Shown: piece by piece, positions 1 to 15,851 of the stretch
Numbering within the stretch: position 1 is the first letter of the stretch
Layout of the letters: each line of letters opens with the position of its first letter
NCBI RefSeq assembly: GCF_014803385.1
Contig: NZ_JACYFC010000001.1
Coordinates: 950,136-1,014,135, forward strand
Length of the DNA stretch: 64,000 bases
DNA from: Marinomonas colpomeniae
Lineage (GTDB): Bacteria; Pseudomonadota; Gammaproteobacteria; Pseudomonadales; Marinomonadaceae
Reading direction: 5' to 3'
Translations under genes and position numbers: made by a program
The notes under the pieces: generated by a model
The model's input: the letters and a program-made list of their open reading frames with translations, nothing else
The model's database searches: none
Told to the model about the DNA's origin: nothing

Positions 1-124
1 TGTTCAATTCGTTTTTTTGCGCAGTTGTTAGTTCTATAACGTCCTGTTCATCCGCTACAGAATCCCAAAGCTGTTGAGCTAAGGTTACTTTTTCATTTGT
101 ACTTAAATCGTCTAGTTTCATCAT
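1..124 (-). CDS. Putative addiction-module component, partial (5' part only)
   Basis: The gene reads leftward out of the window, so only its first 41 codons are present. The translation begins MMKLDDLSTNEKVTLAQQLW and continues with a stretch in which DSV.DEQ and ELT..QK.EL can be read. This matches the N-terminal half of the short antidote-like proteins of the putative addiction module component family (TIGR02574-like), whose members normally sit in front of a RelE/ParE-type toxin gene. The toxin, if present, would lie outside the window. Two consecutive ATG codons (124 and 121) could start it. Function is inferred from the family only. Confidence 0.6.
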   Translation of the reverse strand, partial: MMKLDDLSTNEKVTLAQQLWDSVADEQDVIELTTAQKNELN

Positions 125-293
125 AATTACCTAACAATATTTGACGTTTCTTCAGTATAAAACGATTTTAGCTAAATGTAACTGATCATAGATAATACGT
201 CACTGTTCTCATTTCTCACTATGTAATAAGATGTTCGTAATTTAAAAATACACGAGCAACAAGCCGACTCTTGAACAAGCAGAGAACCAGATT

Positions 294-1796
294 ATGTCAA
301 ACTATGACCAACTTATTTCCCATTACCAAACCATCAATCACTTCAACCACGCTCAATCTATGTTGGGTTGGGACGCTGCTGCGAATATGCCAACAGGTGG
401 TAGTGATGCACGCTCTCAAGCTATGGCGGAATTGTCTGTGCATGTTCACCGTTTATCGACTCAGCCACAACTTGGCGAGTGGTTTAACAATGCTGAAAAC
501 GAATTGTTAAACGCAGAACAAACGCCGTTAATCACAGAAAAAAAGGCCAGCTTGCGAGAAATGAAACGCCAGTGGCAACAAGCCACTTTGGTGCCAGAAG
601 ACTTGGTACAAGCGCAATCCATCGCGGGCTCCAAATGCGAACACGCTTGGCGATCACAACGTCAAGAAAACGATTGGACAGGCTTCGAGAAAAACTGGAA
701 AGACGTCGTCGCCTTATCTCGTGAAGAAGCCGCCATTCGTGGCGAAGCATTAGGCTTGACGGCTTATGACGCCATGCTCGACAAATTTGAACCAGGCACG
801 ACGACGGCGTCCCTTGATACGTTATTTTCAGATGTGAAAACATGGCTACCAGAGCTGATTGAAAAAGCACTCGCAAAGCAACAATCTGAATCTATCATCA
901 TGCCATCGGGCACTTACCCAACCGCAGCGCAAAAGTCACTGGGGTTAGAAATTATGAAGCTGCTAAAGTTCGATTTCGACCATGGCCGATTAGATCAAAG
1001 TGTTCACCCATTTTGTGGCGGCGTACCATCCGATGTGCGAATCACCACGCGTTATGACGAAAGCGACTTTGTACAAGCGTTAATGGGCATCGTTCACGAA
1101 ACAGGCCACGCTCGTTACGAACAAGGTTTACCGAAAGCCTTTGCTGGTTTGCCAGTAGGGGAAGCGCGCTCCATGGGAATCCATGAATCCCAATCCCTAT
1201 TCTTTGAGATGCAAATTGGCCGCAGCAAAGACTTCATCACACACTTGTCACGCCTTTCTGCCGATGCTTTTAACGCATACAAAGACCCAGTATTCACGGA
1301 AGAAAATCTCTACAAACTCTACACACGCGTAGACAAAGGCTTTATCCGAGTCGACGCCGACGAACTGACTTACCCAGCGCACGTCATCATGCGTTATGAA
1401 ATAGAACGCGACCTGATCAACGGTGTCATCGAACACACAGACGTACCAGAAATTTGGGATGAGAAAATGAAAGCGTCTCTTGGCATCACAACCAAAGGCA
1501 ACTACAAAAACGGCTGCATGCAAGACATCCACTGGACAGACGGAAGTTTTGGCTATTTTCCTTCTTACACACTGGGCGCCATGTATGCGGCTCAATACAA
1601 AGCCACCATGACCAACACCGTCAACATAGAAGCGGCCATTCAAAGCGGCGACCTAAGCCCAATTTTCCAATGGCTCAACGACAACATCTGGTCACAAGCT
1701 TCGCTCCACACTACAGACGAACTCGTCAAACGCGTCACAGGTGAAGTGCTTAATGCAGAACACTTTAGAAAACACCTAGAAGCGCGTTATTTGTAG
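294..1796 (+). CDS. Metallocarboxypeptidase, M32 family (carboxypeptidase Taq type)
   Basis: This 500-residue protein has the usual length of M32 zinc carboxypeptidases, cytoplasmic enzymes that remove C-terminal residues from peptides. The zinc motif HETGH is at about residue 268. It is followed by the family-typical HESQS segment about 30 residues later, where a third ligand is supplied. There is no signal peptide, in keeping with a cytosolic role in peptide turnover. It stands alone: the left neighbour is divergent and the right neighbour convergent. The ATG at 294 is preceded by an AGAGAACC stretch as a weak ribosome site. Family assignment is firm; substrate preference cannot be read. 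Confidence 0.93.
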   Translation: MSNYDQLISHYQTINHFNHAQSMLGWDAAANMPTGGSDARSQAMAELSVHVHRLSTQPQLGEWFNNAENELLNAEQTPLITEKKASLREMKRQWQQATLVPEDLVQAQSIAGSKCEHAWRSQRQENDWTGFEKNWKDVVALSREEAAIRGEALGLTAYDAMLDKFEPGTTTASLDTLFSDVKTWLPELIEKALAKQQSESIIMPSGTYPTAAQKSLGLEIMKLLKFDFDHGRLDQSVHPFCGGVPSDVRITTRYDESDFVQALMGIVHETGHARYEQGLPKAFAGLPVGEARSMGIHESQSLFFEMQIGRSKDFITHLSRLSADAFNAYKDPVFTEENLYKLYTRVDKGFIRVDADELTYPAHVIMRYEIERDLINGVIEHTDVPEIWDEKMKASLGITTKGNYKNGCMQDIHWTDGSFGYFPSYTLGAMYAAQYKATMTNTVNIEAAIQSGDLSPIFQWLNDNIWSQASLHTTDELVKRVTGEVLNAEHFRKHLEARYL

Positions 1797-1867
1797 TTTA
1801 ATCGTATTTTGAATAGCCGATTTGTTCCCTCCCTTTTCTTCAAGGGGAGGGTTAGGGAGGGGTTGTC

Positions 1868-1912
1868 ACGAACGGTTCCTTTCTCTTTCAAGGGTAGGGA
1901 ACCGTTCGTTTT
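1868..1912. terminator. Bidirectional terminator hairpin between convergent genes
   Basis: A perfect 12-bp inverted repeat (ACGAACGGTTCC at 1868-1879, complement at 1898-1909) with an 18-nt loop is followed by TTTT. It lies between the convergent carboxypeptidase and ATPase genes. Just upstream (about 1829-1861) is a G-rich and C-rich stretch able to form a second, weaker hairpin. Confidence 0.65.
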
Positions 1913-1927
1913 GTCCTCAGCTATAAA

Positions 1928-4051
1928 TTACTCATTTAACGCTTTTTCGCTCAAAATGAAACTGCGAATTTCTTTAGGAAAAATAAGTAATGAACTTGGA
2001 TCGTTCGTTGCAAGGTAAGCTGAAATAGCCTCTGTTTCTTTAATTATAGATTTGAATTTTTCATTTTCATAAATATGAAACTTAGCTGACTCTAAAAAAA
2101 TCTTCGATTTTTGAATACAGCAATATACGATAAGCTGAATCATGTGTGTTATTTTATAGTTCTTGGACTCTATCAATGCTTTTAAACCAACTTCAATATC
2201 TTCTTTTGAGTACTGGTCAGAATTAATGAATAACCTAGGTATTATTGATGATATATAGTCCACTTCATTAGTTTTATCTACAAGTTGAATTAATAGTTCT
2301 ATTTGTTGTGTCTTTTCTTCCCACCTTTCAAAAAGAAGGCCAGTAGACCCTTTTACTATATGAGTGATTAATTGATCTCTTTTATCAAGTGTGAAAACTA
2401 TCGTATCCAAGGTTAGTTTTATGTCATGTAAGCAAGCAATAGCGATGTGAGGAAAGCTGAATAAGTTCAATTGATCGAAACTCTGAAATAATTGTTTTGA
2501 TGTTACGGTTTTTTCTTTTTTTCTTAAGGTATATAAAAATATTAAAGTTGTAGAAACGAAATTTTCTTCACTTGGTAATGAGGAAAAAAGTTTTTTTAAT
2601 AAAGACAATTGAGTTGTTTTTGCACTAAAAAAATTCAAAAGGAGTTCACTGAATTTTTGTGAAAACATTGCCTTCTCCTCTTTGTTGAACTGATAAAACT
2701 GCTCAATGATTTTATGTGTTTCTTGATAATTTTCTTTCTTAAACTCTCTTTCGAAATCTTTCAATGCCACCGTGACGTGAGGGCTAGTGGTAGTGTTATT
2801 AATGGCAGAATTGATAAGGTCTTCCGTTAAAAATTTGATGCCTAAGAGGTCGATTTTTTCATTACTTTGAATCTGCTTTAGTTCTGTTGTGGTATAAAAA
2901 TGACGAATCAAATCAATCGCTAATTTAATAGGCGCTCCACGGTTGTCTTTTACACTTAAAACCATACGAAGTAATGGTTCAGCGATTTCGTAATAGGATT
3001 GACGGCCGTATTGTGTGGATTCCACAAATCCAGACGCTTTTAATTTTTTCAACTGACTGGATGCCGTTTGTGGGCTGATGTGATTCTTCTTGGCTAATGT
3101 TTGTACGGTTACTGCGCCCGATTCACGACATAAACACATGATTAATTTACGTTGCTGAGCGGATATATCTAACATTTTTGCTTGATAATAGGGCGTCAGT
3201 TCGTCCAGCATTTTCATCATGGGTTCAGTAAATTCATTTAGTGTATCGGCTTGAATAAACTGAGAAAATAACACATAAATTCTTGGACTTCCGCCTGCTA
3301 AATGATGTAAAGCTCGAATTCGTGCTTGGCCTTCTTCTGTGTTTAATACTTCTATCAATGCTTCGTTTTTATCGCGTTTGGCGATGTTGAGCAGTAATTG
3401 GATAGCGTCTTTTAGAGTGAATTTTTCTAAATGCGTGACGGTGAAAAAACCGTAGAAAGGCTTACTACGAGAAGTCACACTAGCAAACAAGGATTGTGTT
3501 GCTGCGGCAATGGTGACCTTTCCTGTGTTTTGAATAAAAGCTCTTAGTTTCTCTTGGTCATCCGTTCCAAGGCCATCGAAAATAAGGTTTAAATTTTCCG
3601 CCAATATGACTAATACCTTATTAACCAATAAATTCTCTATTAACTTTTCAGCTTGATATTCTGCATCGGTTAAACCCAGTTCATATAAAACATCAATGGT
3701 GCTGAGGTCGATGCTGTTTTCGTCATTTTCTAAATTACGCAAAATTTGTATTAATAAATCTAGGTAAGAAGAGATTCCCCATTCTTCCTCGCGTAACCAA
3801 GTTAATAGCATAGTCTTTTTGAGTACGTGATCTTGTTTAAGCTTGTGGTACAGCATGGAGATAAGATGCGTTTTCCCCATTCCTCTTGGGCCAACAATCA
3901 AGGAAAAATGCTTACTATTTTCTAATACGCTGCTTTTGTGTTTGTTATAAAGAGAGGTCAGTAATGCATCACGCTTCACAAACATAGCCTGTAAGGTTTC
4001 TGGCGCTAATATACTAGGAGTATAAAGTGGAATGTTATTGTGTATTTGCAT
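1928..4051 (-). CDS. P-loop ATPase with winged-helix domain, unknown function
   Basis: This protein of about 707 residues starts with an Orc1/Cdc6- or STAND-like NTPase domain. The Walker A motif GPRGMGKTH is near residue 60. The expected Walker B strand reads VLVILAEN, so the usual Asp is replaced by Ala while the Glu is kept. A MarR-like winged helix follows in the middle (about residues 300-375, with HISPQTASSQLKKLKASGF as the recognition region), then a long helical C-terminal half without recognised domains. The ATG at 4051 was chosen because AGGA precedes it at good spacing and it lies 2 nt after the upstream stop; the longer frame to 4078 would overlap that gene. It is the second gene of a two-ATPase operon. 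Function is unknown; a regulatory or conflict role is possible. Confidence 0.8.
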   Translation of the reverse strand: MQIHNNIPLYTPSILAPETLQAMFVKRDALLTSLYNKHKSSVLENSKHFSLIVGPRGMGKTHLISMLYHKLKQDHVLKKTMLLTWLREEEWGISSYLDLLIQILRNLENDENSIDLSTIDVLYELGLTDAEYQAEKLIENLLVNKVLVILAENLNLIFDGLGTDDQEKLRAFIQNTGKVTIAAATQSLFASVTSRSKPFYGFFTVTHLEKFTLKDAIQLLLNIAKRDKNEALIEVLNTEEGQARIRALHHLAGGSPRIYVLFSQFIQADTLNEFTEPMMKMLDELTPYYQAKMLDISAQQRKLIMCLCRESGAVTVQTLAKKNHISPQTASSQLKKLKASGFVESTQYGRQSYYEIAEPLLRMVLSVKDNRGAPIKLAIDLIRHFYTTTELKQIQSNEKIDLLGIKFLTEDLINSAINNTTTSPHVTVALKDFEREFKKENYQETHKIIEQFYQFNKEEKAMFSQKFSELLLNFFSAKTTQLSLLKKLFSSLPSEENFVSTTLIFLYTLRKKEKTVTSKQLFQSFDQLNLFSFPHIAIACLHDIKLTLDTIVFTLDKRDQLITHIVKGSTGLLFERWEEKTQQIELLIQLVDKTNEVDYISSIIPRLFINSDQYSKEDIEVGLKALIESKNYKITHMIQLIVYCCIQKSKIFLESAKFHIYENEKFKSIIKETEAISAYLATNDPSSLLIFPKEIRSFILSEKALNE

Positions 4052-4053
4052 AA

Positions 4054-5250
4054 TTATTTCCTGTGGATACGCCACCATTGTTTGATTAATGAGAAAGAAA
4101 AATTATAAGTGTTATTTTCGGAGTCTTTCGTTAAATAATGATCCGCCGCGAGTAACCTTAATGCTTCTAGCAGAAAGTTCTTAGTGTCTAGATAATCCAT
4201 AAGTGTTTGATTGTTTGTCACAGTAGGTGATAGGAGTAATAGGTTGTTAAGCTTTTCATAATCTAAACCTTGTTCTTCTTGAGCCAAGATATCCAAAATC
4301 ACTTGGTAAAATTGATACTGCTCACCGTAATACTCTTGTAGTCTTTCGTCATAATGACGCAAGTGCCATGGATCATTGGCATCCACAAAAGCATCTTGGA
4401 TCATCGGCTCGATATTCTGAGTGGCAATATTGTCACCTTTATTTAGAAATGCATTAATCATGTGATGAATATAAAAAGGAACATTATCGACTGCTTGGGA
4501 GAGTGCTTTGGCGAAGTCTTCTTCCACAGCAACAAGGTTTTCACCCTCTAACAATTGGTTAGTTAACTCAATGGAATGTTCCAATTTTAAAGGAGACAAG
4601 TTTATTGTTTGCATATCATTAGTCGGCTCATTGGCTAATGACGCTGCTTTTAAATCTTGCAACACATGATGTAAACCAATTGACCCCGTGAATATCATTC
4701 GAACACGACTGTGGTTTTGACGCGCTAATCTCAAGTTGTCGAGTAAATTAGCTGCAGCAGTATTTCCTTCGTTTTTTATGATTTTTTGTAGCATCCATGG
4801 GAATTCGTCCCAAATTAATAATAGTTTTCTGTCTTCGGCTTCGTAGATATTTGCTAATTTTTTTATCATGTCTTCAAGAACAAATATCCAATCTGGGTCT
4901 GCTTTTTTAGCTACGGTGACCCCGAAAAATTTTGAATCAGATAACTCGTTTCTTACTTTCTTAAGAAGCTCGATCCCTTTTGTTGTCATAGCCTGATGTG
5001 AGGATAAGTCATCAACGAGACGTGTAACAAACTCTTTAATAGTTGAAATACCTTCCACATCACGCAAAATAACGGTGATGCTTTCTCGTGGTTCTTCCTT
5101 CATTTTTCGGATGATGCTTGTTTTTCCGATACGGCGTTCTGACGTTAAAATAACGCTTTGCTGTTCAATAATTCGCCACATGTTATTAATGAATGCATCG
5201 CGCCCAATGACTTGTTCAGGTGCAATATTGCCTCCCGCATTTACTTTCAT
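4054..5250 (-). CDS. AAA-type ATPase (archaeal-ATPase-like), first gene of ATPase pair
   Basis: This 398-residue P-loop ATPase has a GRDAFI..MW entry motif, an atypical Walker A (SERRIGKTSI, with the first Gly replaced by Ser) and a clear Walker B (LLLIWDEFPW). A sensor-like strand RMIFTGSIG follows, and a C-terminal region with winged-helix character comes after about residue 310. This resembles the archaeal-type ATPase group (PF01637-like) within the STAND/Orc continuum. The start at 5250 is supported by AAAGGAG eight bases upstream; the frame runs further upstream without a ribosome site. The next gene begins 2 nt after the stop, so the two are probably translated together and may form a complex. 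The biological role is not known. Confidence 0.8.
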   Translation of the reverse strand: MKVNAGGNIAPEQVIGRDAFINNMWRIIEQQSVILTSERRIGKTSIIRKMKEEPRESITVILRDVEGISTIKEFVTRLVDDLSSHQAMTTKGIELLKKVRNELSDSKFFGVTVAKKADPDWIFVLEDMIKKLANIYEAEDRKLLLIWDEFPWMLQKIIKNEGNTAAANLLDNLRLARQNHSRVRMIFTGSIGLHHVLQDLKAASLANEPTNDMQTINLSPLKLEHSIELTNQLLEGENLVAVEEDFAKALSQAVDNVPFYIHHMINAFLNKGDNIATQNIEPMIQDAFVDANDPWHLRHYDERLQEYYGEQYQFYQVILDILAQEEQGLDYEKLNNLLLLSPTVTNNQTLMDYLDTKNFLLEALRLLAADHYLTKDSENNTYNFSFSLIKQWWRIHRK

Positions 5251-5281
5251 GATATTCACTCCTTTGTTATCAATGAATAGA

Positions 5282-5309
5282 ATAATACACCAAAAACGAC
5301 GTACGTCAA
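5282..5309 (-). promoter_or_regulatory. Sigma70-like promoter with overlapping palindrome for the ATPase pair
   Basis: On the minus strand a TTGACG -35 hexamer (5304-5309) and a TATTAT -10 hexamer (5282-5287) are separated by 16 bp, about 30 bp upstream of the ATG at 5250. A perfect palindrome GACGTACGTC (5298-5307) overlaps the -35 element and is a candidate operator. The motifs are seen directly; their use is inferred. Confidence 0.6.
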
Positions 5310-5480
5310 TTTCGACGGTAATTAATCTAAGTGCACATTTATTTTGAGGGGCACTCAAGATAGGTACATCTAAAACTCAATAAAAAACAAAGCTGGTATT
5401 AAAAAAATCAAACAAGTGGCAGCTTGTCGGTTACACTCTCTCTTTATGTATGCGGTAATAATGCTAATTGGATCAATCAT

Positions 5481-6368
5481 ATGGCTCAAAACTACACACC
5501 TACTTTTAAAAACTGGCTTTCTCTGCTGTTACTCATTCTGCTGTGGGGGACGTCATTTATGTTTACTGCCGTCTCACTGGAAAGCTTTAGCCCTGTGGCG
5601 ATAGTCTCTCTCAGAGTCTTGATTGCCGCGATTATTCTCACTGTCTTTATGTATGCCAAGGGTTGGCGTTTGCCTGTGGAGCCATTGGCTTGGGCGATAT
5701 TTTTGCTGTTGGGTGTTATGGGGAATTTGTTGCCATTTTTTCTGATCTCCACAGGTCAGAAGGATATTAGCTCGGGCATTACGGGATTGTTGATGGCATT
5801 TATGCCGCTGGCGACCATGATTTTGGCGCATTATTTTGTGGTAGGGGAAAGCCTTAATCGCTTTAAGATCTTCGGTTTTGTATTAGGTATTACTGGCGTG
5901 GTGGTTGTGCTTTGGCCGTCGTTAGTAGGCGCTCACAGTAACTTACTGAGTGGTCTATTGATTTTATTCGCCACGTTTAGTTATGCGATAAATGCCATTT
6001 TGGTGAGGCGATTGCCTTCCTATAATCCCGTTGTCAAAGCGGCTGGTATGATGATTATTTCCAGCATCGTGATCGTGCCATTGTGGTTGTGGCACGATTT
6101 ACCTTGGCAACAAAGTTATTCTTTAAAAGCTACGTTATCCTTGTTGTGGCTAGGTATCGGCCCAACTGCGTTTGGCACCATTCTGTTATTTGCCGTTATC
6201 GCCACGGCAGGCCCTACGTTTCTTTCGTACATTAATTACATGATTCCTATTGTGGCGTATTTTACTGGCGTGCTGCTTTTGGGTGAAGCCTTTGAATGGC
6301 AAAGCCTAGCGGCGATGTTATTAATAATCTTGGGGATAGCACTAACGCGAAAGCGGGTTGCTGATTAA
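5481..6368 (+). CDS. EamA/DMT-superfamily transporter
   Basis: This integral membrane protein of about 295 residues is built from two EamA repeats with about ten hydrophobic helices. The first helix carries LLLILLWGTSF and the second repeat ends in a GEAFEWQS..AMLLIILG pattern typical of drug/metabolite exporters. Members export amino acids, nucleobases or other small metabolites; the substrate cannot be predicted. The ATG at 5481 gives the normal family length and N-terminus; the reading frame extends 19 codons further but those residues do not look like this family. It is divergent from the ATPase pair. Confidence 0.85.
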   Translation: MAQNYTPTFKNWLSLLLLILLWGTSFMFTAVSLESFSPVAIVSLRVLIAAIILTVFMYAKGWRLPVEPLAWAIFLLLGVMGNLLPFFLISTGQKDISSGITGLLMAFMPLATMILAHYFVVGESLNRFKIFGFVLGITGVVVVLWPSLVGAHSNLLSGLLILFATFSYAINAILVRRLPSYNPVVKAAGMMIISSIVIVPLWLWHDLPWQQSYSLKATLSLLWLGIGPTAFGTILLFAVIATAGPTFLSYINYMIPIVAYFTGVLLLGEAFEWQSLAAMLLIILGIALTRKRVAD

Positions 6369-6393
6369 ATACAGCAACCAAGATAGATATCTT

Positions 6394-6439
6394 AAAGAGG
6401 TCAGATCCTTAAAAATTGTTTAAGGAATCTGACCTCTTT
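6394..6439. terminator. Bidirectional terminator hairpin
   Basis: An 18-bp stem with one bulged A (AAAGAGGTCAGATCCTTA at 6394-6411 and its complement at 6421-6439) has A and T tracts on its flanks. It lies between the convergent EamA and oxidoreductase genes and can serve both. Confidence 0.75.
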
Positions 6440-6456
6440 GTACTCTATCTACGTTA

Positions 6457-7584
6457 TTACTTCTGAGGTGTAATTAGATATTTTTCACCGGTTGCTTGTT
6501 TAGAATAGCCCGCGATAGATTGCAGTTGTAACGCTTCTGCTAATGACACTTCGTGTGTGTAGTGGCTTGCAAAGGTCGTTGTGATTTCTTCTGCAACACG
6601 TTTGCGCATCGCTACGACGGTTTCTGTGCCTAACTTACCCAATGCATTGAATAATAAGAATCCATTAACCGCCCAAGCAAAACCGAAGTCACGATTTAGG
6701 GTGATAGGGCCACGGTTTAATGCGCCATAGATGTAAACTTGTTTGAAAGTATCAGAGCCATAAATGGTGTGTTCTTTCATATCTCGTGCTGCAGCCACTT
6801 CCATACAGTTAAGAATATCGCTGGTTAGTTGTCCGCCACCAATTGGATCAAAGGCTATCGTTGCACCGGTTTCAATAATCGCGGCGGTTAAGTCGGCAAG
6901 AAAAGAGTCACTGCTTGAGTTAACAACATATTTTGCACCCATGTCGCGTAATAGTTTTTCCTGCTCTGGTTTACGCACTATGTTAATTAAATCAACACCA
7001 TCAGCAATACAAACTCGGTTTAGCATTTGTCCAAGGTTAGACGCCGCTGCAGCATGAATAATGGCTTTGTGGCCTTCTGCGCGCATTGTTGCCACCATTG
7101 TCAGTGCGGTAAGCGGGTTAACAAATGAAGAGGCACCTTGTTTAGCGGTCGTACCTTCTTTTAATGGTAAGCAGCTTTGTACATTGGCACAGTGATATTG
7201 ACGATAAGTGCCACCACCAATAACGGCGACGGTTTTGCCCATTAACGCTTGTGCAGCAGGCGATGAGCCAGCCGCTACCACGGTTCCTGCACCTTCATTA
7301 CCCACTGGCGTTGCTTTACCAACACGAGTTTTAAGGGATGGCATCGCTTGAACGGGTACATCCGCTGTGATGATTGGGTTTTCTTGAGTGCCTGATTGTG
7401 TTGCTGTAGACATGTCAGCCGCACTGAATAGAACACCTAAGTCAGATGGATTTAATGGTGCCGCTTCAATGCGAATGATGACTTCATCGGCACCCGGTTG
7501 TGGCATGTCGATGTGTTGTAGAGCCAGTGTTAATGTGTTGTCTTCATTGATTGTTGAAGTAAGTTGGATGTTTGTGTCTGTCAT
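6457..7584 (-). CDS. Zinc-type alcohol dehydrogenase-like (MDR) oxidoreductase
   Basis: This medium-chain dehydrogenase/reductase of about 375 residues has an N-terminal GroES-like domain (DEVIIRIEAAPLNPSDLG, typical of quinone-oxidoreductase relatives). A nucleotide-binding domain follows with AIIHAAAASNLGQMLNR and a later AFDPIGGG segment. The structural and catalytic zinc cysteines of true alcohol dehydrogenases are not evident, which favours an NAD(P)H-dependent quinone or enal reductase. The ATG at 7584 follows GGAG with 9-bp spacing; the upstream extension starts with TTG and is unlikely. A LysR regulator is transcribed divergently and probably controls it. Confidence 0.82.
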   Translation of the reverse strand: MTDTNIQLTSTINEDNTLTLALQHIDMPQPGADEVIIRIEAAPLNPSDLGVLFSAADMSTATQSGTQENPIITADVPVQAMPSLKTRVGKATPVGNEGAGTVVAAGSSPAAQALMGKTVAVIGGGTYRQYHCANVQSCLPLKEGTTAKQGASSFVNPLTALTMVATMRAEGHKAIIHAAAASNLGQMLNRVCIADGVDLINIVRKPEQEKLLRDMGAKYVVNSSSDSFLADLTAAIIETGATIAFDPIGGGQLTSDILNCMEVAAARDMKEHTIYGSDTFKQVYIYGALNRGPITLNRDFGFAWAVNGFLLFNALGKLGTETVVAMRKRVAEEITTTFASHYTHEVSLAEALQLQSIAGYSKQATGEKYLITPQK

Positions 7585-7827
7585 TTGGGTATTCTCCTGC
7601 AAATGATTAAATTTTGAATCAACGACGCTGTGGTATTGATTATGGTGTTGGTTATGTTTTGCTTATCAGAATAATTCTAGTCTTAGTGCTTTATCGCTAA
7701 GCGTTTACGTTAAGGGCATTATTACTGGTTTTAATTTGCTTATATATAGAGGTAAAAGCGAATCACTATTGCTATTATGACAACAATGAGGCGATGATAA
7801 TCCGATATTTGTTTAGTGGAGAAATGA

Positions 7828-8733
7828 GTGGATCAACTACGAGCAATGCGGTATTTCAGTAAAGTTGTCGAAACGGGCAGTTTTACTAAAGCCGCGCGTA
7901 TGTTTAATGTGCCGCCATCTTCCTTGTCGAGACGGGTTGCCGATTTAGAAAAGAGTTTGGGAGCGACCTTATTAAAGCGTTCGACCCGAGTGGTTAAGCT
8001 GACGGAAGTAGGCCAAATTTACTATAACGACGTACAGCAAATATTAAATCAACTGTCGCAAAGCAATGAGCATGTCCGTAGTTACCAAACAACACCAATG
8101 GGGCGTTTACGGATCAGTTCGATGGTAGGGTTTGGTGAAAAAATATTGCTGCCTTTGTTGGATGAATTAAGTGCCTTGTACCCTGAAATTGTATTAGATG
8201 TCAGCCTAAGCGATGAGTTATTAACACTTGGACGTGATGATGTTGATATTGCTATTCGCGGTGGCTATGCGCCCAATGAACGTGTGTTAGCGATAAGGCT
8301 GATGGATAACGGTTTTGTTCCTGTCGCGTCACCCAGTTATTTAGAAAAATACGGTATGCCTACTCATGCGATGGAATTAAAGCACTGTAGTGGCCTTTAT
8401 TTTAGAACGCCCACTGGGCCAACGCCGTGGTTATGCAAAGTAGATGAGCAATGGCATGATGTTTCAGGGCCTGCGGTCGCTATTTCAAATAATGGACCGT
8501 GGCTTGCCAAAAAAGCGTGTAATGGAGAGGGCATTTTAATGTCAACGCGATGGGCGCTGGCGTCTTATCTTGAGTCTGGGATGTTACAAGAACTTAAATT
8601 TGAACATGAGTTAGCGATCACTCAACATTCCGAGATGGCTGTTTATTTGTTGTATCAAAAACAGCGTTACTTAGTACCAAAAGTAAAAGCAGCTGTCGAT
8701 TTTCTAGTTGAAAGAATACGGCAGAATAGCTAA
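7828..8733 (+). CDS. LysR-family transcriptional regulator
   Basis: This 301-residue protein has an N-terminal winged helix-turn-helix (MRYFSKVVETGSFTKAA..., SSLSRRVADLEKSLG) and a C-terminal effector-binding domain of the CrgA/DsdC-like LysR type with the DDVDIAIRGG signature. The start is GTG at 7828, preceded by GTGGAGAA. It is divergent from the MDR oxidoreductase, with about 240 bp between the two starts, the usual arrangement for a regulator and its target. The inducer is unknown. Confidence 0.92.
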   Translation: MDQLRAMRYFSKVVETGSFTKAARMFNVPPSSLSRRVADLEKSLGATLLKRSTRVVKLTEVGQIYYNDVQQILNQLSQSNEHVRSYQTTPMGRLRISSMVGFGEKILLPLLDELSALYPEIVLDVSLSDELLTLGRDDVDIAIRGGYAPNERVLAIRLMDNGFVPVASPSYLEKYGMPTHAMELKHCSGLYFRTPTGPTPWLCKVDEQWHDVSGPAVAISNNGPWLAKKACNGEGILMSTRWALASYLESGMLQELKFEHELAITQHSEMAVYLLYQKQRYLVPKVKAAVDFLVERIRQNS

Positions 8734-8789
8734 AGAGCACCTAGTAAAAGTATATTAAGTCCCTTGTCACAAGGTCACTCTAACAATAT

Positions 8790-8829
8790 AAAAAAGACCG
8801 ATGCTATGAAAAGAGCATCGGTCTTTTTT
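8790..8829. terminator. Bidirectional intrinsic terminator
   Basis: A perfect 16-bp stem (AAAAAAGACCGATGCT at 8790-8805, complement at 8814-8829) has an 8-nt loop, with A-tract and T-tract on its two sides. It separates the convergent LysR and MYG1-like genes. Confidence 0.9.
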
Positions 8830-8840
8830 ATTAGAGAGTT

Positions 8841-9713
8841 TTAATAATCCAACGCCATTTTTGCCATTTGCATTGTACTTTCAAACGACGCACAACCTGC
8901 GATAAACACGCCGTTGTGACAGAACATAGCATCGTCTAAACCCGTTACGTCTTGTAGTTCTTTATCAGACAATCCTGCCCACGGAGCGGGTAGTTTTTTA
9001 CGGTCTTCAAACGAGCCGAGTTCGACTGGCACGGTTTGTATGCGCCATTTTCCTTGTGATGGGTAAACCATGAACAAGGCGTCTTTCGATAATCTAAGCA
9101 CGGTGGTTTTCCAAGGTGTGTATTGTTCTAACACGATGACTCTTGGATCTTCGGCTTTTTCGATGGCACTGGCTACGATGGTTTTTGCGTTTACACCACC
9201 ACTCGCCGCGGCAATGAACCGAGTTAATAGGCGTGATGCATAGGCAACGGCTTCATCAAAGCAGGCATCAAAATCACCTTCTTCTTGCCATGTAGGATTA
9301 AACATTGAGATAGTTTGGCTCAGGCTAATACCCGTTTGTACGCCTTCTACGTGTCCGCAATCTATTGCGTCGATAGTAGACACTAAATTCTTGTCTAATG
9401 AATTAGCGACTTCTTGATTGCCTGCGCATATTTCTAGGCCGTATTTTTGCCAAATTAACCCAAATGATGAAAACGGGATGCCATTTTCGCGTGCGCCTGC
9501 ACCGCCTTTTTGGTGATGATCAAAGCGGCCTTTTTCTGCGTCGTATATTCCGCCTACGTCTAACACAATGTCGGCTTTGGCCATTACGTCTAAATCACGT
9601 GTGCGTATTAATTCTACAGACGGAAAAATGTGTTTAAGTGCTGCTACGGCAAATACATCGTCTGCATGAAAATTGCCATTGTGTGTTGCAATTACTTTAA
9701 CTTGTTCGGTCAT
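8841..9713 (-). CDS. MYG1 family protein (DHH-like metal-dependent hydrolase/exonuclease)
   Basis: The 290-residue translation starts with THNGNFHADDVFAVAAL and carries DVGGIYDAEKGRFDHHQKG around residue 50-70. These are the metal-binding motifs of the UPF0160/MYG1 family, related to DHH phosphoesterases. The eukaryotic members are 3'-5' RNA exonucleases; the bacterial role is not defined. Length matches the family. No operon partner is evident, because the nearest upstream genes are separated by about 290 bp. Confidence 0.88.
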   Translation of the reverse strand: MTEQVKVIATHNGNFHADDVFAVAALKHIFPSVELIRTRDLDVMAKADIVLDVGGIYDAEKGRFDHHQKGGAGARENGIPFSSFGLIWQKYGLEICAGNQEVANSLDKNLVSTIDAIDCGHVEGVQTGISLSQTISMFNPTWQEEGDFDACFDEAVAYASRLLTRFIAAASGGVNAKTIVASAIEKAEDPRVIVLEQYTPWKTTVLRLSKDALFMVYPSQGKWRIQTVPVELGSFEDRKKLPAPWAGLSDKELQDVTGLDDAMFCHNGVFIAGCASFESTMQMAKMALDY

Positions 9714-9999
9714 TCTATAGTCTCTTCTATTGATATCATGTCACTTAACAGCACACACGTACTAAAAATAGAGATTTTACTGGGTTTTAATGATGGGTGA
9801 CACCGTTCATTTTAGAAAGGCTAAGATCACCATTCGTAAAGGCCAATAAGAATAGCAGGCTTTGGGCTTCTCTGAATTTACCAGACAATAATAGTTCAGG
9901 AATATGTTAGGGATATTTCACATCATTACGCTAACAGTTAGTGTTCTGCTCTTCTCAAATACGGAGCAACCCAGTTGTTCTCTAAATTAGATTCGCAAG

Positions 10000-10776
10000 C
10001 TATAAACTGAATAATATATCAGTTCGAATAATGTACTTGATTCCACTAGAGATTTTTTGTGAGGCATGTAGGCAATGTAATGGATGCGAACCATGAGGGA
10101 AGCACAACATGCCGCCAGCAGGTGTACGAATACCCTTTAATTGAGCATTTTTAGGTGTTTTAGCTGGCTGAGTTGGGTCATCTTTATTCACTAAAAACTG
10201 TGTTTCACCATCGACGAAGTCATCACTTAAAAAAATCAAACAAGTATATAAGCTATAACGATCACCAAAAGCATCAGTAACCACGTTGCCATCAATGATA
10301 CGGCTACCTGGCCATGCTCCATCCGTATGAATACCGAAAAAATCTTCTGGCTCATAACGATAAAAACGAAAGCGTTGGTTTAACCCTAATCCAACTTTAT
10401 CTAAAAAATAAGGGGTACTTATGTTAAAAAATGGCGCAACGCGCTTCCAAATAGAACGTTCCGTCGTATTGTCTGTGATCCAATTAAGGTTCATGTTATG
10501 ACGGATATGATGGCCAAGAGACACCGCCGCGTCTTCTGTATATCCCATGTTTTCAGCTGCGCGAATGATGGTGTCACATTCGTCTTTGCTAAAAACATTT
10601 AATAATTGAAAAGCACCTGGTACGTCAGTAACGTCCAAATGCTCTATCTGTTGTACTGAGTGTTCTTCTAGCTGTAATGGGTTTTCAACATGGCTACCCC
10701 ACAATGGTAAATTCGTTGACGTACTACCTGATTCGTAGTCAGCAATGTAAAAAGGATTATTTGTTGAGGTTGTCAT
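10000..10776 (-). CDS. 2-oxoglutarate/Fe(II)-dependent oxygenase (prolyl 4-hydroxylase-like)
   Basis: This protein of about 258 residues carries the double-stranded beta-helix ligands of Fe(II)/2OG oxygenases. The HTD motif is in FFGIHTDGAWPGS. A distal His in LHASQKISSGIKYIIR is followed ten residues later by a Lys, as in prolyl 4-hydroxylases where this Lys binds the 2-oxoglutarate carboxylate. A C-terminal procollagen-lysine/proline hydroxylase-like core is therefore likely; the substrate is unknown. The ATG at 10776 overlaps the end of the upstream VOC gene by 20 nt, indicating coupled translation. The frame extends further upstream, but entirely inside that gene. Confidence 0.85.
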   Translation of the reverse strand: MTTSTNNPFYIADYESGSTSTNLPLWGSHVENPLQLEEHSVQQIEHLDVTDVPGAFQLLNVFSKDECDTIIRAAENMGYTEDAAVSLGHHIRHNMNLNWITDNTTERSIWKRVAPFFNISTPYFLDKVGLGLNQRFRFYRYEPEDFFGIHTDGAWPGSRIIDGNVVTDAFGDRYSLYTCLIFLSDDFVDGETQFLVNKDDPTQPAKTPKNAQLKGIRTPAGGMLCFPHGSHPLHCLHASQKISSGIKYIIRTDILFSL

Positions 10777-12421: not shown

Positions 12422-12606
12422 ATTGAAAAGGCTAAGCGGCTTAGGTTAATTGGGAAGTATTTATAATCAGCTGTGACGCTTTAGTGAACAAGAAAAAGCG
12501 TTGATATCGCTGTGTTGACTAAGTTTCAACCTACAATGAGAGCTTAAAAAGTACAGCTTACGCCCCCAAGTTATAAGCTGATTGTTTTTTATCCTTTTGA
12601 TAATGA

Positions 12607-13611
12607 TTACGAATAATCGCTGATCACTTGGTTCCTGCCTTGAAATTTAGCTTCGTACATTTTTTGATCCACTAAGTTGAACATGGTTTCTAGCCCTTGA
12701 CCTTCCTTATAAGCGGTAACACCAAGACTAGCAGTGATGCTTATTTCATTACCTCTGCTTATAACGTGATTGTTCTGAATGGCTAAGCGAATGTTCTCTG
12801 CAATATCAACACACTCTTTTTCTGACTGATAAGTTGTACATAAAACACAAAATTCTTCTCCACCATAGCGAAAAACATCAGTGCTATTGGCTGTTTTTGT
12901 TATGCATTCTACAGTGGATTTCAAAACATCATCGCCTACATCATGACCATATTCATCATTCACTTTTTTAAAGTAATCAATATCGATCAAAATAGTAAAG
13001 AAATTCGCTTTCTTTTCAATTAGTTCATTGCATCTATTTTTAAACGCTAATCGGTTTTTTGCGCCAGTTACTATGTCTGTGTTTGCTAACAAATACAGCG
13101 TCTTTTCTTTTTTCTGGCGATTGTTTTCATAAAGATGTGATACAACCCAAATCGATAGATAGCAGGAGATAAAATTAACTGAGCCACTTTGGTGCATAGA
13201 AAAAAGATCTTCTGTTCCTGTTTTTTGAAAAAAAATGGCATAGGCTCCACTTATAGATAAAAGTGAAAAGACGAAACCCATTTTAATACCAGTAAGAATA
13301 TAGAAGATAACGGGCAAACAGAACACCCAGAAAAAAACACCCTTTAAAAAAGGTGCCTTTATAAGTGCAAATGAGATGACAATTAATAAACTGACTAAAT
13401 AAAGATAAACTTGCCAATTTTTATGTTTTTTCTTTGAGGCCACAATGGCTATATAAAATGAAGCTATAAAAAAAAGTATTTCAACAAAAGCGAGAATGTA
13501 GAATTTGTTAATAAATAAATTTAAATAAATAACACTTAATACAATGATACCTAAGGCACTTGCTAGTCCAGATAATACCTTGCCCTGAAGCTCTGAATTT
13601 TCTTGATACAT
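12607..13611 (-). CDS. Membrane diguanylate cyclase (GGDEF)
   Basis: The N-terminal half of this 334-residue protein consists of about six hydrophobic helices. The C-terminal GGDEF domain carries DIDYFKKVNDEYGHDVGDDVL and the active-site motif YGGEEF, so cyclic-di-GMP synthesis is expected. The inhibitory I-site Arg is not present: the tetrapeptide before the active site reads NSTD rather than RxxD, so product inhibition at that site may be absent. The membrane part is not a recognised sensor domain. It stands alone. Confidence 0.9.
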   Translation of the reverse strand: MYQENSELQGKVLSGLASALGIIVLSVIYLNLFINKFYILAFVEILFFIASFYIAIVASKKKHKNWQVYLYLVSLLIVISFALIKAPFLKGVFFWVFCLPVIFYILTGIKMGFVFSLLSISGAYAIFFQKTGTEDLFSMHQSGSVNFISCYLSIWVVSHLYENNRQKKEKTLYLLANTDIVTGAKNRLAFKNRCNELIEKKANFFTILIDIDYFKKVNDEYGHDVGDDVLKSTVECITKTANSTDVFRYGGEEFCVLCTTYQSEKECVDIAENIRLAIQNNHVISRGNEISITASLGVTAYKEGQGLETMFNLVDQKMYEAKFQGRNQVISDYS

Positions 13612-13840
13612 TGCTTGTTTTTACCTTAAAAATGATACTGCTGATTTTCTCTTCAATATACTCAAGTTGTTGATAAGTATGAGAGCGGCTTATATCAATA
13701 AGAGTCTAATTGTTTTGTATTTAGGATTGTATAAAAAAACAAATGTCTTACGTAATGAAACTTAAATTAACTTAAGTTTACAATTTGAAGGGTGTATCTT
13801 GAGTGAAATTTTAACTTTCTTCTTATAAAAAGGATTTTTT

Positions 13841-14926
13841 ATGTGTACTCGTATTCTAAACAGTCTTAATCCAGATCATATTGTCACGTCTAGGAATATG
13901 GACTGGAATTGTCCTGTAGAGTCTTATCTGTATTATTTCCCAAAAGGAAGTACACGGATAGGTTTATCAAATATAGAAAGGACTAGATTGGATTTTTCTA
14001 AGAGTGATGTATTGAATTGGAAGTCTATTTATAGCTCAATTACTCAAATGATCACATCTAGTGAGTATTTGAGTTCAGAAAAAAGATTCGCGTGTGCAGA
14101 TGGGATGAATGATCAAGGATTAATGGTTAACGCTTTATATGATTCCGATTCAACATTTTCTGAAGCAAGCGATTTAAAGGGAAAAAAGGTTCTTAGTGCG
14201 TTGCGTTGGGTTCAATATATTTTGGACACATGCAGTAATGTTTCTGATGCGATCAATGCTTTTTCAACACAGGATATCCATATCGTTATCGAAAAAGTGC
14301 CTGATACATATTCTAAGCGAGATAGCTTATTCCATATATCTTTATCTGATGCATTAGGTAATTCAGGCATTATTGAGGTAAATGAAGGTAAGTTTGTTGT
14401 GTATGAAAATACGCAGTATGGCGTGGTTACTAACTCTCCGTGTTACGCAGCCCAAATTAAGATTATGGATTACTGGCTATTTCAATGGGATTTATTAGCA
14501 GATGTAAGAAATACAACGCCAACTTACAATGTACTAGGAGGAAACTCTTCGGTTTCACGCTTTGAACGAGCTTGTTTTTATCGTTATCTAAGTAACTCTA
14601 ACCCTCAGAATGTAGTATCTCAAACCTATTCAATGGCTGTTTCATGTTCTACTCCAACAGGATTTGATCCTAAGAGTATCTCAGAGAGAAAAGAGGAGTT
14701 GCCGCCACCAACGACAATTTGGATAAACTTGGGAGATTCATCAAATAAGAGATACTATTTTCATAACATGTTTACAATGAGTTCACTGTGGTTAGAGCTT
14801 CCTTTAAAAAGTGATGTCTGTAAACGTGTTGCTTTAACTAATAGTGACGGCGAAGCTTTAACTGACATTGGTTATGGCGATTTGGAAACTGAATTACTGG
14901 TTTGTTCAGATCCACTAACTAAATAA
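13841..14926 (+). CDS. Choloylglycine hydrolase-family Ntn hydrolase (linear amide C-N hydrolase)
   Basis: This 361-residue protein has Cys directly after the initiator Met (MCTRILN), as required for the N-terminal nucleophile of this family. SRNMDW supplies the expected Arg and Asp near residues 18-21, and MNDQGLMVNALY carries the Asn motif near 90. Relatives cleave linear amides such as bile-salt conjugates, penicillin V or acyl-homoserine lactones. In a marine bacterium the last group or another N-acyl amide is more plausible than bile salts, but this is inference. No signal peptide is seen, which suggests a cytoplasmic enzyme. The ATG follows AAAAAGGA. Confidence 0.85.
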   Translation: MCTRILNSLNPDHIVTSRNMDWNCPVESYLYYFPKGSTRIGLSNIERTRLDFSKSDVLNWKSIYSSITQMITSSEYLSSEKRFACADGMNDQGLMVNALYDSDSTFSEASDLKGKKVLSALRWVQYILDTCSNVSDAINAFSTQDIHIVIEKVPDTYSKRDSLFHISLSDALGNSGIIEVNEGKFVVYENTQYGVVTNSPCYAAQIKIMDYWLFQWDLLADVRNTTPTYNVLGGNSSVSRFERACFYRYLSNSNPQNVVSQTYSMAVSCSTPTGFDPKSISERKEELPPPTTIWINLGDSSNKRYYFHNMFTMSSLWLELPLKSDVCKRVALTNSDGEALTDIGYGDLETELLVCSDPLTK

Positions 14927-15044
14927 CCTGATGTAGAGTTAGATGTTAATTTTGGTCTAATTCTACATACCTAAATTTAAAGTCTATGAGAATTTATAGA
15001 CATAAAAATTATGGTTTAAAGAAATGAGCCCTATAATGTAAGAA

Positions 15045-15851
15045 TCAGTAACATTTTGCCTGTTTGTTTTGTGCCACTAAAGCTTCATATGTTTTAAGGT
15101 ATGGAGGCATGCTTGATTCTAAATCATTGATACGTGTGGAATGAGAAGGGTGAGTCGATAATAGCTCAGGTGTTTTACTACTGCCTGCTGCGCTCATGTT
15201 ACGCCATAATGCGGCACTTTCTCTAGGGTCAAACCCTGCTTTAGACATGTATTCCAATCCTAATAAATCCGCTTCGGATTCATGATAACGGCTAAAGGGT
15301 AAGATGATACCGACTTGTGCACCCACACCTAACGCTTGGAATACCAATACTTTTCCTGCCGATTCTTCACCGCTAAGCTGGTAACCAAGAGCCAGTGCTT
15401 GGCTGGCGAGCAGTTGTGTAGATACTCGTTCATTACCGTGTTTTGCTAGTACATGACCCACTTCGTGACCAACAACAGTAGCTAGTTGCGACTGGTTACT
15501 TGCGGTATTCAGTAGACCCGTATAAACCCCAATTTTATAACCAGGTAAAGCAAAGGCATTGACTTGTTCATCGTCAAATAAAACGACTTCCCATTGTTGA
15601 TTACGGTATTCGTCTGGCAGTACGGAGATGATTCTATCTGCGACGCATTGAACTTGTTTTTTCTGCTTAGAATTAGATGAAATAAGAATTTCTTCTTTCA
15701 TCGAACTAAAGGATTCAACGCCCATTTGATCCATTTGACTTTCAGGTAATAGGGCCAATTGTTTGCGACCACTTGGTGATGAGCTGCAGCCCACCACCAT
15801 AACTAATGCCGCTGCCAGTGCCGCCTTGTAAGAAAAATTTATACACTTCAT
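15045..15851 (-). CDS. M48-family metalloprotease lipoprotein (LoiP/YcaL-like)
   Basis: This protein of about 268 residues has a lipoprotein signal (hydrophobic stretch ending VVG|C, Cys at residue 22). It also carries the zinc motif HEVGH at 129-133, and a third-ligand Glu in HESEADLLGLEYM. The family acts in the periplasm on outer-membrane protein quality control (LoiP, BepA relatives). The start at 15851 places the signal peptide correctly; the longer frame adds a non-signal extension. It is monocistronic. Confidence 0.9.
   Translation of the reverse strand: MKCINFSYKAALAAALVMVVGCSSSPSGRKQLALLPESQMDQMGVESFSSMKEEILISSNSKQKKQVQCVADRIISVLPDEYRNQQWEVVLFDDEQVNAFALPGYKIGVYTGLLNTASNQSQLATVVGHEVGHVLAKHGNERVSTQLLASQALALGYQLSGEESAGKVLVFQALGVGAQVGIILPFSRYHESEADLLGLEYMSKAGFDPRESAALWRNMSAAGSSKTPELLSTHPSHSTRINDLESSMPPYLKTYEALVAQNKQAKCY

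Follow-up and report, generated by a model that had tools for sequence, protein, structure and literature searches.

The 64,000-nucleotide (nt) stretch of the Marinomonas colpomeniae genome analysed here (the window: positions 950,136 to 1,014,135 of contig NZ_JACYFC010000001.1) carries two adjacent genes, A and B, whose products we propose to form a self-regulated, two-protein, NLR-like sensor switch, probably part of a conflict system. We put the probability of this complete statement at about one half. It builds on the pairing of A and B across bacteria, the folds of their structural models, a sharply bounded hypervariable tail in B, promoter sequences that co-vary with a DNA-binding-type domain of B, and the presence of the pair as a discrete insert.

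4054-5250, minus strand: gene A, a predicted STAND/Orc-like ATPase of 398 amino acids (aa) with a nucleotide-binding domain (NBD), a helical domain and a C-terminal winged-helix-like part.
1928-4051, minus strand: gene B, a predicted 707-aa STAND/Orc-like ATPase with a MarR/ArsR-like winged helix-turn-helix (wHTH, residues ~295-365) and an all-helical C-terminal tail (~440-707).

A sequence-only reading of this DNA had described a coupled pair of unusual ATPases, separated by 2 nt and driven by their own promoter. The layout is as it said: both genes lie on the minus strand and start with ATG, A's start codon is preceded by AAAGGAG, and 2 nt separate the stop of A from the start of B. A and B travel together between bacteria. 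B lies directly downstream at every one of the 23 further chromosomal places where A is strongly matched, namely six from the genus, ten from the class, five from the phylum and two more, in Colwellia (L004) and Competibacteraceae (L005), that hold both genes, so the co-occurrence that the earlier reading asked for is found. Within the genus, A was matched in 8 of 48 genomes, the window's own included, with B adjacent in seven; the eighth (G025) encodes an A-like ATPase as a fusion with a type I methyltransferase/specificity-like protein, and a second ATPase comes next. In the class, where 18 of 369 genomes matched A (own included; E 1e-8), 20 places besides our own were listed and 13 fetched, the remaining seven scoring 37-45 bits; all ten further matches of at least 95 bits have B directly downstream (at L054 the contig covers no more than its first 145 residues), and the three weaker ones (56-60 bits) come without B. 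At the level of the phylum, A was matched in 6 of 398 genomes (own included; E 1e-20), and B is adjacent in the other five, running off the contig at L101; for L103 and L104 the place of A was taken from the phylum search. An independent search with B matched 8 of 200 genomes, five of them (own included) over the ATPase part and always at A loci, and the other three through the tail alone. Among plasmids, five records matched A, and B is present on all three from Moraxella. On one plasmid, p4, an IS5-family transposase gene splits gene A (L135, 8998-11034), and B is annotated whole. As side observations, a Segatella copri (Bacteroidota) plasmid (L136, 6983-9030) has a distant A homologue overlapping the gene for a 298-aa ATP-binding protein, with a WYL regulator and a DUF262 gene nearby, and locus L027 (4171-9652), from another genome of the genus, encodes a 1304-aa methyltransferase-specificity-ATPase fusion followed, with an overlap of ~28 nt, by a 531-aa STAND-like ATPase; by eye the latter lies within a conjugative-like element and is possibly a related paired-ATPase restriction system.

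Both proteins have their P-loop early, within the first 61 residues. What we take to be the Walker A motifs read ERRIGKTS in A and GPRGMGKT in B (residues 54-61), and the presumed Walker B regions are LLLIWDEF and VLVILAENL. Against Pfam, A just passes the cut-off of AAA_22 (27.2 vs 27); B stays below the cut-offs of AAA_16 and AAA_22 and exceeds those of MarR, MarR_2 and HTH_11 at residues 295-347. The model of A (pLDDT 88.4), whose C-terminal part consists of helices and two strands, is best matched by 2QEN (Z 28.1, root-mean-square deviation (rmsd) 3.9, 334 residues aligned), with 2FNA (Z 25.1, rmsd 4.4, 338 aligned), archaeal ORC2 (Z 21.6, rmsd 5.3, 335 aligned) and the NRC4 resistosome (Z 21.0, rmsd 3.7, 319 aligned) also found. 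In the model of B (pLDDT 76.4), structural matches are confined to residues 1-376: 2QEN again comes first (residues 7-367; Z 21.2, rmsd 3.7, 317 aligned), along with NRC4 (residues 9-376; Z 20.4, rmsd 4.2, 320 aligned), ORC2 (Z 20.4, rmsd 4.0, 332 aligned) and CED-4 (Z 19.9, rmsd 4.1, 322 aligned). TnsC is also among the resemblances of the models. Because the fold comparison returns the same set of structures for both, A and B look like STAND/Orc-like cores, to which B adds a tail that is modelled as nearly all helical, with lower confidence; the earlier reading's assignment to this type, and its winged-helix regions in each protein, thus agree with the models and with the profile matches of B. 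A GxP-type motif is a further trait of STAND NTPases; P258 is invariant in A homologues, B has a GGxPR region with invariant G254 and R257, and the models combine NBD, helical domain and winged helix with such a motif. A sequence search of solved structures led from B mainly to ArsR-type helix-turn-helix (HTH) proteins (best E 0.0043) and from A to one chance-level match only. Among the families matched in ten B homologues, those of ATPases, HTH domains and repeats are the only plausible ones; tetratricopeptide-repeat (TPR) families were matched in all ten, and no TPR family was found in the window's B or in two Moraxella B proteins scanned. The repeats of the L055 protein also match unrelated families over cut-off (25 of 39 matches listed), which we took as repeat artefacts.

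The hypervariability of the B tail is sharply bounded.

1928-2731, minus strand: hypervariable tail segment of B (residues 441-707), sharing 44% identity with the nearest relative, where residues 1-390 share 92%.

Compared with L003, where these same two values are seen for B, the A proteins are 85% identical. The loci L022, L024 and L025 share 97% of B residues 1-390 among themselves and 53-66% of the tail, with B lengths of 756, 690 and 791 aa, and on two Moraxella osloensis plasmids the identity is 99% for A, 95% for B residues 1-390 and 62% for the tail. Overall, near relatives from three separate groups show 89-97% identity in the first 390 residues vs 44-66% in the tail; for the more distant L004 the values are 76% and 23%. 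The rate of nonsynonymous change (dN) rises from 0.012-0.064 in the first part to 0.19-0.48 in the tail. On the three Moraxella plasmids, the same downstream genes go with identical tails, and another downstream gene goes with another tail. The earlier suggestion that such a pair could be a sensor finds support in this tail.

Our data also bear on how the pair might be controlled.

5282-5309, minus strand: promoter-like TTGACG-16-TATTAT of the A-B operon, from the consensus scan and the footprint described below.
5298-5309, minus strand: operator-like TTGACGTACGTC with the palindromic core GACGTACGTC, overlapping the -35 box.

The near-consensus promoter named in the earlier reading is present. 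The consensus scan alone is uninformative, with 9 sites found vs 12.0 expected in shuffles; rather, the call is supported because TTGACGT occurs at most 120 nt upstream of A in seven of the eight carriers of the window's subfamily (window included; the miss is L052) and in none of 100 control promoters, nor in any of the 19 other pair promoters. By eye, there are repeats upstream of A, often containing TTGAC: TTGACGTACGTC in the window, a tandemly copied 16-bp unit in L003 and a long palindrome in L004. L050 has TTGACGTACGTTA, and distant carriers have other families, TTGACAAT..ATTGTCAA and TAACTATAAAATTATAGTTA. Inverted or direct repeat structure (p at most 0.025, from 100 shuffles of each pair promoter and 60 of each control) was detected in 17 of 22 non-redundant pair promoters vs 15 of 100 controls, a pass rate among controls that makes the test liberal; with the redundant L022, L024, L025, L026 and L064 retained, 22 of 27 pass. 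The five non-redundant failures are the window, L005, L051, L056 and L105. An 8-mer test on the same 27 promoters was mixed, the window lying at chance (126/300 shuffles). Across 20 loci, promoter similarity tracks identity of the B wHTH (Mantel rho 0.52, 0/2000 permutations), as it does after dereplication to 14 loci (rho 0.41, 0/2000), vs a rho of 0.07 (382/2000), or 0.01 dereplicated (922/2000), for the control stretch 120-240 nt upstream, in a test that only partly removes shared ancestry and base composition. Since the exact 12-mer TTGACGTACGTC occurs once in its own 3.7-Mb genome, at the A promoter, and one-mismatch sites number 11 vs 10 for the reversed control, no regulon is visible. 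We therefore consider it likely, from these sequence comparisons, that the pair is autoregulated through a putative operator at its own promoter, and it is in this form only that the DNA-acting role raised by the earlier reading would stand.

The pair is a discrete insert between M32 peptidase and EamA genes.

~1887-5399, no strand: inserted segment, defined by the empty M32-EamA site of two congeners; borders approximate.
1868-1909, no strand: 20-nt inverted repeat between the convergent M32 gene and B, spanning the left border of the insert.

The neighbours are presumably an M32 carboxypeptidase (294-1796, convergent with B) and an EamA transporter (5424-6368). Among 29 other M32 loci surveyed with up to 1.5 kb of flank, two (G016 and G018) have EamA, 93-94% identical, directly after M32, and EamA was not found within the 1.5-kb reach at the remaining 27. 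Alignment to the empty sites gives a cargo of ~3.5 kb, made up of the pair and its promoter, and in the nearest carrier the pair sits among other genes than in the window. The ORF list shows no transposase, integrase or replication gene within the inserted segment of the window. The inverted repeat is a possible terminator, although the terminator scan did not call it; it belongs to a repeat-like segment (1827-1909) with the core CACGAACGGTTCC, which has one further copy in its own genome (G000:C1:189287) and a similar stretch after M32 in L075. Rfam gave no match at gathering score in positions 1-10000 of the window.

The hints of a role in defence come mostly from plasmids. In four of the five plasmid records with A, one of them without B, known or candidate defence genes adjoin. 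On Moraxella pNP7-2 the pair is flanked on one side by genes that are annotated as Qat or adjoin it, and on the other by a cassette of PRTase-CE, ORC-CDC6-like, CARF and N6-methylase genes, and p4 carries the same cassette after the pair (98.8% DNA identity), so that these two plasmids are not independent. On pSKB0120-2 (L064, 5009-10868) the end of B overlaps by 17 nt with a gene that matches the N-terminus of Avs4 (3-248) and PD-Lambda-4_A (163-810), and on the Methylomonas plasmid A adjoins type I restriction, AbiD and CBASS genes. At L105, B is directly followed by a gene that partly resembles Ppl and mad3 (12542-15355). We also note that the cassette downstream of the pair (L063, 12388-17911; L135, 13222-18745) reads, in order, dUTPase, PRTase-CE, ORC-CDC6-like, triple-CARF protein and N6 methylase.

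Based on these observations we can present a rough proposal for how the pair might work, in which DNA binding by B, the ligand, the assembly, the output and a function in defence are inferred. At rest, B, together with A, would bind through its winged helix to the repeats at the -35 box and hold the operon low. The variable helical tail of B would then bind a ligand of foreign origin, most likely a protein from a phage or mobile element, upon which the STAND cores of B and A would open, co-assemble in an ATP-dependent manner and leave the operator, so that operon expression rises and the assembled complex can act. The output may be assembly of A and B on DNA or, at loci with an effector gene after B, that effector. 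A role in conflict or immunity, possibly against phages, seems to us slightly favoured over the absence of one. More tentatively, A-B may represent a group of two-part bacterial NLR-like receptors that lack an effector and whose sensor, B, doubles as the sequence-specific repressor of its own operon. Sensing, derepression and assembly with A would then be one event, and recombination of the tail together with co-evolution of the operator would yield an orthogonal switch in each lineage; we hold this broader version to be doubtful, though worth stating. STAND/NLR receptors usually carry their own effector. If true, a tail-less/tailed pair that lacks one and apparently reads its own promoter would link sensing and transcription in one molecule, provide a natural set of mutually distinct sensor-operator pairs, and offer a testable case of paired (‘sensor’ plus ‘helper’-like) NLR logic in bacteria.

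Several observations weigh against this proposal. The Pfam scan found no effector family in A or B, nor the N-terminal effector domain usual in STAND/NLR immune receptors. In the tail of B, the rate of synonymous change (dS) is also raised and partly saturated, so exchange of old alleles explains part of the divergence, and dN/dS is below 1 wherever dS is finite. The window's own promoter has no repeat structure beyond chance (inverted p 0.21, direct 1.0). The Methylomonas plasmid has A without B, phage records gave no match, and viral contigs gave none either, with short patterns of P0002 only. Chromosomal neighbours are mostly housekeeping-like by eye, and PADLOC matches near chromosomal pairs show no clear excess over other stretches of the carrier genomes. 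In that comparison, 127 proteins (at least 150 aa, within 6 kb) came from 19 pair loci, and the control comprised 127 out of 163 proteins encoded in 15 hand-picked, non-random stretches of 12 carrier genomes; it excludes L133 and L134 altogether, 10 of L132's 14 proteins and seven single ones. The pair set gave matches to 53 models and the control to 30 (E 1e-25; a count of models, not proteins). Among the 25 of 53 models listed for the pair set, most are of helicase type, with PDC-S01 (two proteins), PD-T4-5, mad3, AbiLi and Cas6 besides, and the 25 of 30 listed for the control include HerA, SIR2 and type II restriction. This is a weak test, and it does not support the defence reading. Thus, of the defence role mentioned in the earlier reading, what may stand is the suggestion from plasmid context and tail evolution, and the chromosomal neighbourhoods add no clear enrichment to it.

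The pair could instead be a STAND-type transcription regulator with MalT-like logic, responding to a cellular or environmental signal and regulating itself and perhaps a few host genes, with no immune role. The MarR/ArsR-like wHTH of B and the promoter repeats that co-vary with it would fit such a regulator, as would the chromosomal copies among ordinary genes and the fact that four related Marinomonas (L022, L024, L025 and L026) keep the pair, by eye, at or close to one common position, with ABC-transporter and AraC-type regulator genes on either side. However, no regulon is visible, and the hypervariable tail, the patchy presence in the genus and the plasmid contexts fit it poorly, so that we regard this explanation as unlikely. 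Somewhat less likely still is that A-B is a control module that senses and turns on a neighbouring defence gene: the Avs4-like gene overlapping B on pSKB0120-2, the partial-Ppl gene of L105 and the joint change of B tail and downstream genes in Moraxella all point that way, but no co-directional gene directly follows B in the window or in most of the chromosomal loci for which the following gene could be inspected, and in L026, L050 and L053 one is found only some 140-290 nt after B.

The resemblance of both folds to archaeal ORC2 and TnsC, the tandem 16-bp repeats of L003 and the occurrence of the pair as an insert would also be expected of an accessory pair for replication, maintenance or transposition (Orc/Cdc6-, TnsC- or MuB-like), with the iteron-like upstream repeats as origin or target-selection site. 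Such a role would leave the hypervariable tail unexplained, the insert lacks mobility and replication genes, and the Orc1/Cdc6 initiator profile TIGR02928 scores 16.0 bits for B vs a cut-off of 181.3, with no match for A; we consider it very improbable.

Membership in a known system was sought in Pfam, PADLOC, NCBIfam and PHROGs (defence catalogues to 2023), with only general AAA and HTH or weak matches; in line with the earlier reading, which recognised no pathway, no housekeeping family passed its cut-off. The PADLOC search that it proposed gave for A a weak match to the candidate PDC-S27 (20.7 bits, E 3.9e-5, positions 3-290 of 474), a single-gene candidate for which the portion of the source at hand mentions no partner (PMC12988326). 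By eye, the ORFs of positions 1-9000 include no PglZ, methyltransferase or helicase partner of the BREX type; as for a peptidase partner of the LypABC type, the ORF lists show the M32 gene adjoining the pair, but it is convergent and is present without the pair in congeners. Among the papers listed in literature searches, which lay mostly outside subscription journals, none described the A-B pair. It is probably a new variant of the STAND/NLR-like kind, assigned to no profiled system.

Several known proteins nevertheless offer useful comparisons. The archaeal STAND ATPases 2QEN (Pab2304) and 2FNA (SSO1545), compared with A and B as single chains only, have the same core of NBD, helical domain and winged helix. 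The NLR and apoptosome receptors NRC4, CED-4 and Apaf-1 share this core and a C-terminal tail of variable sequence, and so, according to the part of the source available, do bacterial Avs/bNACHT proteins (PMC10907252). Unlike these receptors, A-B comes with no N-terminal effector domain that we found, its receptor B is accompanied by a second, tail-less STAND protein, A, and the winged helix of B looks DNA-binding. The nearest described ATPase-TPR protein that we found is LypB of the CARD-NLR-like LypABC system of Caulobacter, in which an Orc1-like ATPase is reportedly followed by TPR-like repeats and, since overproduction is toxic, transcription must be tightly repressed (PMC13236601). That account places ~190 residues ahead of the LypB ATPase (193-392), whereas B has its ATPase at the N-terminus, with no such domain ahead of its Walker A motif, and has its own wHTH; it also gives LypA and LypC peptidase domains and makes the repressor, CdxB, a separate protein. 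Finally, the CBASS WYL factor and CapK/CapS provide examples of an immune operon regulated by a co-encoded protein, as we propose for A-B; in the accessible portions of those reports (PMC9122588, PMC13373217) they are separate regulators, whereas in A-B the putative repressor would be the sensor ATPase itself.

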